Positions 13,980 to 60,300 of a DNA stretch of 64,000 nucleotides are shown here, piece after piece. The notes beneath the pieces are model-generated. The model made no database searches. It was not told the origin of the DNA and was given only the letters and a program-made list of their open reading frames with translations. The stretch is from Streptomyces rapamycinicus NRRL 5491 (GTDB lineage Bacteria; Actinomycetota; Actinomycetes; Streptomycetales; Streptomycetaceae), in contig NZ_CP085193.1 of the NCBI RefSeq assembly GCF_024298965.1, positions 6,696,001 to 6,760,000 of the forward strand. The letters are read 5' to 3'. Each line of letters begins with the position of its first letter. Position 1 is the stretch's first letter. Made by a program: the position numbers and the translations under genes.

Positions 13980-14038
13980 GGTTCCTACGGCTCCTACGGC
14001 CGACGGCTCCTACGGCTCCTACGGCCGACGGCTCCTAG
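13980..14038. repeat. GGCTCCTAC repeats running into the response-regulator stop codon
   Basis: GGCTCCTACGGCCGAC and GGCTCCTAC alternate in a 25 bp higher-order unit (copies at 13989 and 14014). The last copy, GGCTCCTAGGG, contains the reverse-strand TAG stop of the response regulator (14035-14037). Each unit repeats a reverse-strand TAG. Confidence 0.85.
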
Positions 14039-14700
14039 GGTTCGATCAAGCCGACGCGGATGGCGTAACGGGTCAGCTCCAGCCGGTCCTTCAGGCCGAG
14101 TTTCCGCAGCAGGTTGGCGCGGTGACGCTCGACGGTCTTGACGCTGATGACGAGCAGTTCGGCGATCTGCTGTGAACTGTGCCCCTCGGCGACCAGCTTG
14201 AGGATCTCCTCCTCACGGCCGGTGATGGGACGTCCGGGGATGCTCTCGCCCTCCTGGAGGCGGCCCAGGTAGCTGTGGATGAGCGCGTTGACGGCACCGG
14301 GATAGAGGAAGGGCTCGCCGCGCATGGTGGCGCGGCAGGCTTCGACGAGGTCGCGGTCGGCGACGGACTTCAGGACGTAGCCGGAGGCGCCTGCCGCCAG
14401 CGCCTCGAAGAAGTACTGCTCGTTGTCGTACATGGTCAGAATGAGGATGCGCGTCTCCGGTTGGCTGCGGGCCAGTTCCCGGGCGGCCTGGAGACCGGTC
14501 AGGCGGGGCATGGCGATGTCGAGGATCGCCAGGTCCGGCCGGTGGGCGCGGGCGGCCTCGATGGCTTCGGCACCGTCTCCTGCCTCGGCGACGACGGTGA
14601 GGTCGGGTTCGCCTTCGAGGATGAGTCGGACTCCGCGGCGGACCAGAGCGTGGTCGTCGGCGAGCAGGATGCGGGTTTCGGTCGCCTCGGGCATGGTCAC
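14035..14700 (-). CDS. NarL/FixJ-family response regulator
   Basis: 221 aa. Receiver domain: RILLADDHALVRRGV with acidic Asp15-Asp16, phosphoacceptor in LAILDIAMP (about Asp61), conserved Lys in GYVLKSVADR. C-terminal LuxR-type HTH: PITGREEEILKLVAEGHSSQQIAELLVISVKTVERHRANLLRKLGLKDRLELTRYAI. Start GTG 14700 overlaps the stop of a sensor-kinase reading frame by GTGA, the normal kinase-regulator coupling; ATG 14694 is an alternative. The kinase is reduced to its last codons, so this regulator is now orphaned or cross-activated. Confidence 0.93.
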   Translation of the reverse strand: MTMPEATETRILLADDHALVRRGVRLILEGEPDLTVVAEAGDGAEAIEAARAHRPDLAILDIAMPRLTGLQAARELARSQPETRILILTMYDNEQYFFEALAAGASGYVLKSVADRDLVEACRATMRGEPFLYPGAVNALIHSYLGRLQEGESIPGRPITGREEEILKLVAEGHSSQQIAELLVISVKTVERHRANLLRKLGLKDRLELTRYAIRVGLIEP

Positions 14701-14895
14701 TGGCTCCGGCGGGGGGGGGGGGGCGGGGACGGGGGGGGGGGCAGGGACGGTTGACGGGAACGGGAACGGGGGCGGTTCACGGGAACGGGGACGAGGGCGG
14801 TTGACGGGGACAGTCAGGCGTACGTCGGTGCCGCCTCCCGGAGCGGACCCGAGGGCGAGTTCGGAGCCGATGAACAGGGCTCGTTCGCTTCTTCT
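14697..14895 (-). pseudogene. C-terminal remnant of a sensor histidine kinase
   Basis: The reverse-strand frame ending at TGA 14699-14697 reads SERALFIGSELALGSAPGGG and then TDVRLTVPV, which matches the end of the HATPase domain of NarX/DegS-type kinases (RERALLIGG...SxPGGGTxVRLxVP). An in-frame TAG at 14898-14896 lies immediately before it and nothing upstream to 15099 continues the kinase. The tail after VPV is Pro/Arg-rich, encoded by poly-C runs. The stop overlaps the regulator start. I infer that the rest of a kinase gene was deleted. Confidence 0.75.
14711..14741. repeat. Two long poly-G tracts
   Basis: Thirteen consecutive G (14711-14723) and eleven consecutive G (14731-14741) lie 11 bp upstream of the response-regulator start. 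They are exceptionally long for this genome and prone to slippage and to sequencing error. Shorter GGGAACGGG-type repeats continue to about 14810. Confidence 0.85.
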
Positions 14896-15099
14896 CTATC
14901 ACTCGCGCCCGTTGTCCCGGCCGGAGGAAGGGGCCGGGGCGGACAGGTGTCGGGCTGCGGGCCGCAACGGATGTCGGGATGGGGCCGGATGGGGGTCGTC
15001 CACCGGCGGACATGGGTGTCGGCACCGATGGTGGGGCGCACGGTCGCCATGTGACCGTTGCAGTGACGCCGTGCAGGCCGGTCCGTGGGAGGAGCAGCG

Positions 15100-15438
15100 A
15101 TGGCACAGCCCGGAGACACCCAGCTGCGCGAGCTCGAGGAGCGGATGGCCCGGAGTGACCCGCGCTTCGCCCGTGGCCTGGGGGAGGGGCGGCCCTGTCG
15201 GCCATGGGAGTACCGGCGCGGACCGGGGTGGGCGCTGCTCACCGTCTCACTGATGATGCAGGTGGTCGGCATGCTGCTGCCGCAGGGCCTGCTCCTCGCG
15301 GCGGGTCTGGTGGTGGCGGGTATGGCGACACACCTGTTCGTATCCCCGCGCGGCCACCGGTCCGGTCGGTCCTGGCCCCGGCTGCCGCTTTCCCGGCACG
15401 GGCACGGCGCGAGTGAGCCGGGGCCGAGGCACGGATGA
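15100..15438 (+). CDS. DUF3040 membrane protein
   Basis: 112 aa. N-terminal LRELEERMARSDPRFARGL is the DUF3040 signature, followed by two membrane helices (WALLTVSLMMQVVGMLL and GLLLAAGLVVAGMATHLFV) and a basic tail. ATG preceded by GGGAGGAGC. Function unknown. Its stop overlaps the next small frame by ATGA. Confidence 0.85.
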   Translation: MAQPGDTQLRELEERMARSDPRFARGLGEGRPCRPWEYRRGPGWALLTVSLMMQVVGMLLPQGLLLAAGLVVAGMATHLFVSPRGHRSGRSWPRLPLSRHGHGASEPGPRHG

Positions 15439-15611
15439 GCCCACATCGCGGCACGTCGCGCCCGGGCCGTAGCGGGTCCGAGCCCGAGCTGAAGGTCGAC
15501 TTGCCCTTTGACGGAGGACGTATCCACCCCGTACGCCGCGACGGTGACACCCCGGCCCGGTTCCCGCTGACGAAGCCCGACGAAGCCCATGAAGCCCGAC
15601 GAAGCCCATGA
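15435..15611 (+). CDS. Short ORF, possible decayed antiporter regulatory subunit
   Basis: 58 aa frame starting ATGA-coupled to the DUF3040 gene: MSPHRGTSRPGRSGSEPELK then VDLPFDGGRIHPVRRDGD and FPLTKPDEA. The pattern (G)RIxxVxRDG...(F)PLTxxEA resembles the N-terminal domain of KhtT/AmhM-like proteins that regulate CPA2 antiporters, and the next gene encodes such an antiporter. It ends inside a GAAGCCC repeat and lacks the TrkA-C domain, so it is either a remnant or not a gene. Tentative. Confidence 0.35.
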   Translation: MSPHRGTSRPGRSGSEPELKVDLPFDGGRIHPVRRDGDTPARFPLTKPDEAHEARRSP

Positions 15612-15666
15612 AGCCCGACGAAGTCAACGAAGCCAACGAAGCCAATGCAGCCGACGAAGCCGACGA
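15570..15666. repeat. 9/18 bp GAAGCC repeats
   Basis: GACGAAGCCCATGAAGCCC-type units recur about five times and then degenerate into CGAAGCCAA units. The array carries the stop of the short ORF (15609-15611) and precedes the antiporter start. Confidence 0.8.
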
Positions 15667-58785: not shown

Positions 58786-59105
58786 GAGCTCAGACCGTAA
58801 GCGGGGCCTTTCTGTATTGCAATGCCGCCGCCCGCTATGCCGTCAATGACCGATAAATTTCTCGCCGAAATAATCCCCGGATGAGGTCAAATAATCTCGG
58901 GGTTATTTCGGGGTGGCCGCCCGCACAAATAATTGACAGACGTTATCTGCCCGTGATCGCGGAAGTCATGCGCGATCACGGAAGTGATGCTGGGCGGAAG
59001 ACGGAAGGGAGACGGCGCCCAGGCGGAAGCCATGCGTGGCCGGAGGCGGCCCCTCGGCGTGGTTCCGGCGCCGGACGCCTCCGGCGGGATGGCAGGCTTG
59101 GGCCC
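58786..59105. other. AT-rich divergent intergenic region with hairpin
   Basis: 320 bp, the most AT-rich gap in the window. CCGAAATAATCCCC (58865-58878) pairs with GGGGTTATTTCGG (58899-58911), one bulged base. It probably holds the promoters of the two divergent genes; elements not resolved. Confidence 0.5.
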
Positions 59106-60110
59106 ATGCGTCCGCTTCCGTTCGTACTCGGTGCCGCCGCGCTGCTGGCCGTGTCCGCAGCCGCCCCGGCCGCCGCCGACGACTCGTCGTCGCCGTCCCC
59201 CTTCACGATCCGGGATTCACGGATCACCGAGTCCAGCGGCCTCGCCGCGAGCCGTCTCCACCCCGGCGTCTACTGGACGCACAACGACAGCTCGGACGGC
59301 CCGTACGTATACGCCGTGGACGGCAGGACCGGGAAGACGGTCGCGCGGGTCACCCTGCGCGGTATAGGGGATCCCCGCGATGTGGAAGCGATCTCGATAG
59401 GGCCGGACGGCAATATCTACGTCGGCGATGTCGGCGACAACCTGGGCGGTCAGTGGTCCCATGTGTGGATCTACCGCTTCCCGGAGCCGAAGCAGCTGAA
59501 GGACACCACCGTCACCGCGACCCAGTTCACCGTCAAGTACCAGGGCGGGCCGCGCAACGCCGAGGCGCTGATGGTCCATCCCAAGACGGGCCGCGTCTAC
59601 ATCGCCAGCAAGAGCGACGAGGACGGCGGGCTGTACGCCGGACCGACCACGCTGAGCCCCTCGGGGGTGAACGTCTTCCAGCGGGTCTCCGACATCGACA
59701 TGGAGGTCACGGACGGGGCGTTCTCCCCGGACGGCACCCGGCTGGTGCTGCGCGGCTACTTCTCGGCCGCCGAGTACCGCTGGCGGAACGGAAAGCCGAC
59801 GCGGCTGAAGGAGGAGCCGGGGCTGCCGCTGCAGCGCCAGGGCGAGTCCGTCACCTTCACCCCGGACGGCGGCACCCTCATGTACGGCACCGAGGGCGCG
59901 GGCTCCGAGGTGACGCCGGTGGACCTCGGCGGGGAGCTGCTGCCGGACGCCACCGCGAAGGAGCAGAAGAAGAACGGGGAGTACTCCGACCGCGTCGACG
60001 GCAAGCTCACCGACGACGACAAGAACGGCAACCTGGTCAAGGCCGGGCTCACCTTCGTCGGCGCGCTGGTGGTCTTCTTCGGCCTGCGCAAGCTCTTCCG
60101 CCGGGGCTGA
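59106..60110 (+). CDS. Secreted beta-propeller-like protein with C-terminal membrane anchor
   Basis: 334 aa. Sec signal peptide (MRPLPFVLGAAALLAVSAAAPAAA, cleavage near residue 24), a repeat-type propeller body (SSGLAASRLHPGVYWTHNDSSDGPYVYAVDGRTGKTVARVTL; DVEAISIGPDGNIYVGDVGDN; GAFSPDGTRLVLRGY; SVTFTPDGGTLMYGTEG), and a C-terminal helix AGLTFVGALVVFFGLRKLFRR. Likely anchored on the cell surface; function unknown. ATG 59106 after GGATGGCAGG. Confidence 0.83.
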   Translation: MRPLPFVLGAAALLAVSAAAPAAADDSSSPSPFTIRDSRITESSGLAASRLHPGVYWTHNDSSDGPYVYAVDGRTGKTVARVTLRGIGDPRDVEAISIGPDGNIYVGDVGDNLGGQWSHVWIYRFPEPKQLKDTTVTATQFTVKYQGGPRNAEALMVHPKTGRVYIASKSDEDGGLYAGPTTLSPSGVNVFQRVSDIDMEVTDGAFSPDGTRLVLRGYFSAAEYRWRNGKPTRLKEEPGLPLQRQGESVTFTPDGGTLMYGTEGAGSEVTPVDLGGELLPDATAKEQKKNGEYSDRVDGKLTDDDKNGNLVKAGLTFVGALVVFFGLRKLFRRG

Positions 60111-60141
60111 CCCCGAAGCTGACCCTGGGGCTGGTGGTCAG

Positions 60142-60194
60142 CGCACGCGAAGGGGCCCACGGCCGGTGGTCGGCCGCGGGCCCCTTCGCGTGCG
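60142..60194 (+). terminator. Long perfect-stem terminator
   Basis: CGCACGCGAAGGGGCCC (60142-60158) pairs with its complement at 60178-60194; GGCC/GGCC pairing continues inside the loop. 31 bp after the propeller gene. Confidence 0.95.
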
Positions 60195-60217
60195 GGGGGA
60201 GAGTGAGTCCCCTTGCG

Positions 60218-60300
60218 CTCGGAGTCAGTCCTCCAGGGCCCGAACGGGGCTCGGAGTCAGTCCTCCAGGGCTCGAACGGGGCTCGGAGTCAGTCCTCAGA
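60218..60300. repeat. 32 bp repeats running into the serC stop
   Basis: Units starting CTCGGAGTCAGTCCTCCAGG at 60218 and 60250 and a partial at 60282. The last reads into the serC stop (TGA at 60298-60296). Confidence 0.88.

Follow-up and report, generated by a model that had tools for sequence, protein, structure and literature searches.

Why would unrelated bacterial genes carry tandem repeats at their 3′ ends? The question is raised by a 64,000-nucleotide stretch of the Streptomyces rapamycinicus NRRL 5491 chromosome (positions 6,696,001-6,760,000 of a single contig of 12,466,108 bp; hereafter the window), in which a first-pass annotation had listed eight genes with a repeated unit that contains the stop codon or runs into it. 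The annotation had put this down to a recurrent local process copying gene 3′ ends, such as polymerase slippage at transcription ends or collisions between convergent transcription units. The pattern proves real; it exceeds chance and recurs. The mechanism proposed for it is not needed, and the arrays are probably ordinary slippage duplications that have been filtered by selection, gene stops being among the places that tolerate them.

Tandem arrays at gene stops

Arrays were located with Tandem Repeats Finder (TRF), and stops and gene ends were taken from a simple in-house open reading frame (ORF) and gene finder rather than from a curated annotation. Arrays with a period below 10 or a score below 60 (80 where strong arrays are counted) were left out of the counts. 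An array was present at 8/8 of the places named, each of them laid out in unit register, and the window holds 37 strong arrays (TRF score of at least 80, period of at least 10), against 0 in each of five second-order Markov shuffles. That the units hold or run into the stop stood for six of the eight by an automatic criterion, according to which an array touches a stop when its best TRF row lies within 3 bp of it. The exceptions are the cold-shock protein and permease arrays, whose best rows begin 9 and 16 nt past the stop, respectively; among their lower-scoring rows, one begins 2 nt past the stop (cold-shock protein) and one spans it (permease). A census of the window (score of at least 60, period of at least 10), from which arrays within 500 bp of the window ends were left out, gave 49 arrays, with 22 inside called genes, 8 touching a 3′ end and 19 elsewhere. 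The cold-shock protein and permease arrays are counted among these 19, and two of the 8 arrays touching 3′ ends (at 5279 and 26318) were absent from the first-pass list. Pfam backs the identification of the response regulator, the UvrD-type helicase (HelD-like), the cold-shock domain, MFS, DUF2530, the xanthine/uracil permease and the class-V aminotransferase (serC); the protein called DUF2771 is without a Pfam match at E≤1e-3.

Placement and reading frame

The placement of arrays was followed in 864 kb of sequence from the same genome, which contains 287 arrays with a score of at least 60. Of these, 123 lie inside genes and 106 between genes; a 3′ end alone is touched by 47 and a 5′ end alone by 7, and the remaining 4 touch both kinds of end. 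The same asymmetry is found at the corresponding locus of other genomes, with 46 arrays touching a 3′ end versus 1 touching a 5′ end in six near relatives, and 76 versus 4 in 78 of 80 named loci, two loci of less than 5 kb being left out. A serC DNA search over 392 genomes of the genus gave near relatives at 95-99% identity, and a permease search gave the named genomes (best 80 of 206; 79 titled Streptomyces, one Streptosporangium); among the permease matches listed, the nearest loci are those of S. violaceusniger, S. samsunensis, S. endocoffeicus, S. rugosispiralis, S. antioxidans and similar species. As near relatives and named loci represent one and the same locus, possibly with genomes in common, tests pooling them are not fully independent. 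Per kb of gap, the genome itself has 1.73 arrays in convergent, 1.15 in same-direction and 0.41 in divergent gaps.

Reading frame separates the classes further. The period is divisible by three in 118/123 arrays inside genes, in 15/47 at 3′ ends and in 58/106 between genes, this last fraction exceeding the one-third expected without constraint; genes missed by the finder may be part of the excess. Arrays avoid gene starts, and those that span stops ignore the frame. How far arrays reach into the gene was counted by quarter unit (n=185, four sets summed), giving 38, 35, 42 and 24 in the successive quarters, 22 just outside the gene and 24 at one unit or more, with 11/185 past 1.25 units. This spread over one unit points to a process without a fixed start or end relative to the stop. 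A process aimed at gene 3′ ends, as the first-pass annotation had it, fits neither this lack of register nor the 123/287 arrays found inside genes.

We favour the following scenario as the probable explanation. Short tandem duplications, with units mostly of about 12-50 bp, would arise across the whole chromosome. Their probable source is slippage of a strand, or a switch of template, between very short direct repeats; once formed, the arrays would lengthen and shorten fast, selection setting the survivors. Inside genes, almost only unit lengths divisible by three would be retained; upstream of gene starts, most arrays would be lost, presumably through disturbed promoters and ribosome sites. 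A duplication spanning the stop would be silent because its first copy keeps the last codons and the stop, still ending translation, and any unit length and any register would be tolerated there. The DNA that runs from the final codons up to the terminator hairpin would be a tolerant pocket, and would therefore fill with arrays independently in each species. The scenario rests on the frame filter, the avoidance of 5′ ends, the lack of register, the independence between species and the absence of a unit family for most arrays; slippage as the generator, as well as neutrality, is what we infer.

Turnover between species

Noncoding arrays of the window were compared with the sites that could be anchored in relatives, counting only arrays with a TRF score of at least 50 and taking periods within 1 of each other as the same. 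In G388, whose DNA is 93% identical over the window, 3 of 27 sites have a related unit of the same period, 6 a related unit of another period, 9 an unrelated unit and 9 no array. The corresponding numbers are 1, 3, 8 and 10 for the 22 sites anchored in G112, 0, 0, 11 and 8 for the 19 in G181, and 0, 0, 9 and 10 for the 19 in G071. An array is therefore present at 18/27, 12/22, 11/19 and 9/19 sites, respectively. The arrays are young: at most of its sites G388 has no array, an unrelated unit or a related unit of another period.

The individual stops (Table 1) illustrate this turnover. The response-regulator array has no counterpart at the anchored site of G388, the sole relative anchored there, and the serC array none in G388 or G112, while G181 has an independent 17-bp duplication holding the serC stop. 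At the cold-shock stop, 33 bp x 2.1 is found in G388, 14 bp x 10.9 in G112, 25 bp x 2.0 in G071 and no array in G181, the G112 unit being made up of the final three codons, the stop and two further bases. At the end of gene 42102-42608, 12-bp forms occur in G388, G112, G181, G400 and G071, of which the 24-bp unit of the genome studied here is a higher-order form; in G181, G400 and G071 these forms have only 1.9 copies and a low TRF score, and such low-scoring forms were counted above as no array. At the permease stop, G388 has a related 21-bp unit, versus the perfect 47-bp block found here. Protein ends differ as well: the HelD-like protein ends 4-5 residues later than in six relatives, and the DUF2530 protein of this genome, of G388 and of G112 carries a tail with five residues more than that of G181, G400 and G071. 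As the extra residues are common to the first three genomes, the DUF2530 extension probably predates their split.

Table 1. Location and layout of the eight arrays at gene stops (positions within the window)
Array	Position	Strand	TRF period (bp)	Layout and relation to the gene
Response regulator	13979..14037	-	25	25 bp x 2.4; starts with the TAG stop of gene 14035-14694 (-)
HelD-like helicase	23718..23867	-	29	29 bp x 5.1; spans the gene stop; gene called 23852-25906 (-), ORF from 26236
Cold-shock protein	39905..39995	+	22	22/11 bp; begins 2 nt past the stop of gene 39462-39902 (+)
'DUF2771' gene	41897..42109	-	24	24 bp x 8.9, two diverged 12-bp halves; spans the stop of 42102-42608 (-)
MFS transporter	42681..42791	-	25	25 bp x 4.5; spans the stop of gene 42782-44443 (-)
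DUF2530	51411..51518	-	16/32	16/32 bp; spans the stop and reaches into gene 51480-51767 (-)
Permease	53418..53622	+	47 (lower-scoring rows: 21)	at the stop of gene 51964-53430 (+); perfect 47 bp x 3.7 part = 53447-53621
serC	60217..60297	-	32	32 bp x 2.5; runs into the stop of serC 60296-61414 (-)

The first-pass annotation had taken the units to be unrelated and the process to be recurrent and local rather than one mobile family, and this is borne out: 100/107 strong noncoding arrays are without an off-locus match at E≤1e-6 in the 864 kb, i.e., have a unit unique to their locus, and no single consensus recurs at many loci. A mobile or dispersed repeat family inserting at stop codons, as has been described for mycobacterial interspersed repetitive units (MIRUs) at start codons, would account for the preference for gene ends and for the 7/107 arrays that do have an off-locus match. 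It is refuted for most arrays by the other 100, and several units contain the last codons of their own gene, which makes such a family extremely improbable. Of note, a dispersed palindromic GC-rich element with the core GGGGCTCCGCCCC occurs at L127:16526-16574 and other places outside the window; it is found at several sites of the same chromosome, and some arrays hold pieces of it.

An artefact of assembly or gene calling is just as hard to sustain. Gene ends do come from an uncurated finder; on the other side, the genome is a single contig, separately assembled relatives have arrays at between 9/19 and 18/27 of the anchored sites, and stop positions are the same in 194/226 gene pairs. An assembly artefact is thus unlikely, and artefacts of either kind have hardly any probability as an explanation of the whole.

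Origin of the duplications

Polymerase slippage at transcription ends, one of the two mechanisms proposed initially, survives in part: slippage is still the most likely source of the duplications, but no result here links it to transcription ends in particular. Exact two-copy duplications in noncoding DNA extend past the second copy by a median of 4.5 bp (n=150; about 0.4 expected by chance), and those inside genes by 5 bp (n=76), the periods of exact gene-internal repeats being divisible by three in 92/92 cases. Of the anchored duplications (n=52), 13 could be set against a relative with only one copy; 2 of them were dropped for low identity. In the 11 polarised cases that remained, the relative with one copy carries short direct repeats (2-10 bp) whose spacing matches the period of the later array. 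These data fit, without proving, slippage or template switching at short homologies.

Hairpins and spare stop codons

If stop-spanning arrays are not simply tolerated, they could be functional parts of the 3′ untranslated region, providing spare stop codons or acting in transcript stability or termination. A strong hairpin follows 202/754 array-free stops (19/754 in shuffled sequence), mostly beginning 12-48 nt past the stop, and the rate is similar at stops with an array (37/148). In 29 of these 37 cases the hairpin lies beyond the array (at a median of 20 nt from its far edge), and in 8 it begins inside. This position between stop and hairpin would suit a function, as does the presence of arrays at the same stops in sister species. 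As the hairpin mostly starts outside the array, the arrays do not behave as intrinsic terminators, and those in convergent gaps avoid strong hairpins, overlapping them in 12 cases versus 26.3 expected. The unit sequence, its length and its very presence also vary between species with similar flanks.

The idea of spare stops receives no support from pooled triplet counts. Over 86 arrays, rows with TRF indels being left out, the stop triplet is retained in 109/158 later copies, and other triplets in 2610/3900. Because the two are retained about alike, later copies are not clearly maintained as spare stops. The part of PMC6764699 used here likewise reports no compelling evidence of selection for extra stops in eubacteria. 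Taken as a whole, a function in the 3′ untranslated region is improbable.

Array edges and the case against a purely selective filter

A number of results weigh against the selective filter as a full account. The foremost is an excess of array edges at stops. Each array was placed at random inside its own gap with one unit of overhang allowed, arrays wider than the gap room, gaps below 30 bp and genes below a score of 15-40 (varying by script) being left out. With all sets pooled, 66 edges lie within 12 bp of a stop in convergent gaps, versus 42.6 expected, i.e., about 1.5 times too many, and 52 versus 24.2 in same-direction gaps. In the genome without the window, the counts are 16 versus 11.2 in convergent gaps (552/20,000 simulations as high) and 12 versus 5.7 in same-direction gaps (168/20,000); in the window alone, they are 4 versus 2.7 and 4 versus 0.9. 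Scattered pieces taken from five other genomes give no significant excess (6 versus 5.0; 6 versus 3.0). A coarser measure, overlap with the stop, gives no excess in convergent gaps of the genome (21 versus 22.1), and 35 versus 27.8 in the named loci. The first-pass expectation that array ends meet stops more often than at random is borne out for edges, by a factor of about 1.5 in convergent gaps, where the test is cleanest. In same-direction gaps, the excess probably reflects in part avoidance of the start of the next gene.

The convergent excess is sharp, with 58 edges at 0-11 nt past the stop and 16 at 12-23 nt (all sets). It is not larger where a hairpin is present (19 versus 14.4) than where none is (47 versus 28.2). 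Terminator avoidance was accordingly rejected as its full cause, the excess existing with or without a detected hairpin; in addition, same-direction arrays do not avoid hairpins at all (17 versus 15.0 expected). It was also considered that these edges might be frozen remnants of decayed stop-spanning arrays. Among 63 arrays that start 0-11 nt past the stop, those with over 5% indels being left out, no trace of a former coding copy is seen (identity of 0.274 in register versus 0.289 out of register), and this idea was dropped. The convergent excess is explained neither by detected hairpins nor by decayed coding copies.

It is on this residue that a mutational bias at gene 3′ ends could be founded, whereby termination, R-loops or conflicts between polymerase and replication past the stop would raise the duplication rate. 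Such a bias would predict the 1.5-fold excess and the sharp peak in convergent gaps, where no promoter is expected, and could be related to a slight enrichment in G on the gene strand of stop arrays (0.399 versus 0.357 downstream of array-free stops). It fits poorly with the arrays inside genes, even if these are less dense than in gaps, with the lack of a fixed register, with the scattered pieces of the five other genomes, and with the likeness of convergent and same-direction stops in gaps of 150-300 bp, where 28/182 and 33/239, respectively, carry an array. The bias is therefore unlikely, without being negligible. The narrower proposal that the first bases past the stop are a true duplication hot spot in Streptomyces, set by the ending of transcription or translation and acting beyond selection, is rather doubtful too; if it were true, gene 3′ ends would be nurseries for new untranslated regions and protein tails.

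The comparison by gap length also bears on collisions between convergent transcription units, the other mechanism put forward by the first-pass annotation. Short convergent gaps do carry more arrays (45/222 stops versus 17/216 in same-direction gaps of 60-150 bp), a difference that fits a nearby start restricting arrays; given the near equality at 150-300 bp, collisions were rejected. In gaps of 300-800 bp, arrays are found at 10/104 convergent and 16/164 same-direction stops.

Further points on the same side concern the silence of stop-spanning arrays, the avoidance of starts and the generator. In an array-wise comparison, the stop triplet is better preserved than the rest in 45 of the 86 arrays and less well in 25 (mean difference -0.016), so that stop triplets may be under mild constraint. 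The stop position is unchanged in 65/82 gene pairs with an array, i.e., it has moved in 17/82, versus 15/144 pairs without an array, in rows that share genes and are not independent. Stop shifts being about twice as common with an array, arrays are not wholly silent. In G145, divergent gaps hold 0.95 arrays per kb and convergent gaps 0.33, the reverse of the order found here. Lastly, the count of exact-duplication overruns also takes in pieces of longer imperfect arrays, and microhomology support is weak, the 11 polarised cases standing without a chance control.

A locally array-rich region

The window has 0.58 strong arrays per kb, compared with 0.113 for a sample of twenty 20-kb pieces scattered over this genome, and is thus about five times richer, inside as well as between genes. 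Gene-internal arrays (score of at least 60) reach 0.44 per kb, versus 0.13, and intergenic arrays are raised too. The 400 kb around the window is intermediate, at 0.25 strong arrays per kb (100 of 137 in 464 kb). In the orthologous region, densities are 0.18-0.49 in six near relatives and 0-0.11 in four farther ones. Among named loci longer than 15 kb (ten of at most 15 kb being left out), strong arrays per kb number 0.31 in the seven nearest in permease DNA (at least 94% identity), 0.19 in a single locus at 88% identity and about 0.10 in the 62 others. The local region is array-rich; the whole genome is not clearly so. A raised rate throughout the genomes of the species group was rejected, scattered pieces of this genome and of G181 (0.080 per kb) offering no clearly higher density than those from G145 (0.105) or from G026, which belongs to another genus (0.110); G234 and G033 have 0.055 and 0.020. 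Loss of the mismatch-repair nuclease NucS was likewise discarded as a cause, PF01939 having an open frame in 11/11 genomes, array-rich and array-poor alike, and proximity to the origin yields no explanation, with dnaA at 6.085 Mb, 0.61 Mb from the window.

Around the permease gene, the distant loci L179 (S. endophytica), L188 (S. albireticuli) and L198 (S. zingiberis) contain 11, 7 and 7 strong arrays. As these too are array-rich at this place, local richness seems to have arisen more than once.

Two further features of the window deserve mention. At 28879-28956, six copies of a perfect 13-bp unit lie between two genes called divergent, where arrays are otherwise rare, and a longer ORF (27078-29024) would cover them. 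Judging from its absence at that place in four relatives, this array looks very young. Secondly, 46490-50149 would encode a protein of 1219 residues; a 63-bp repeat, degenerate but in frame, lies at 48341-48539, and the one domain match, to Sacsin, is weak and below threshold.

Significance and comparison with known repeat systems

Arrays of this kind are a natural read-out of a mutation process in a high-GC bacterium, on which the sorting by selection can be followed: in frame within genes, free across stops and rare before starts. They also are species-specific markers at known sites, and those that lengthen protein ends (HelD-like, DUF2530) may offer a small, testable route to new C-terminal tails. 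Among the open-licence literature matches listed, no title or abstract opening describes stop-spanning arrays in Streptomyces.

Bacterial minisatellites, or variable-number tandem repeats (VNTRs), are built head to tail from units of tens of bp and vary from one relative to another, with slippage as the usual explanation. The arrays described here share with them the head-to-tail units of about 10-100 bp. In VNTRs the copy number varies among strains of one species; the differences observed here are between sister species. Small variable segments, minisatellites and slippage are discussed in the part of PMC2884548 used here. What sets the present arrays apart from VNTRs is that an entire array is often replaced by an unrelated one when sister species are compared site by site, and that gene stops show an excess. 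MIRUs, in the part of PMC12548453 used here, are short and seemingly mobile repeats that insert at start codons; the present arrays are like them in being short repeats touching gene ends, and unlike them in having unrelated units and avoiding start codons.

A closer likeness is found with the tandem repeats of the archaeal Borgs, for which the part of PMC9879509 used here describes unit lengths divisible by three in ORFs, unique units and fast independent formation. Common to both systems are this frame rule in ORFs, locus-specific units, fast independent formation and starts within ORF ends. In the Borg pattern, periods between genes are mostly not divisible by three; the fractions inside genes (118/123) and at 3′ ends (15/47) fit this pattern, but 58/106 periods between genes are divisible by three, which exceeds one third. 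Borg repeats are, according to the same part of that source, perfect, A-enriched and carried by extrachromosomal elements. Here, in contrast, only 6/49 arrays of the window are perfect (100% matches, no indels), the units are GC-rich and not enriched in A (0.119 in stop arrays versus 0.137 downstream of array-free stops), and the host replicon is a bacterial chromosome.

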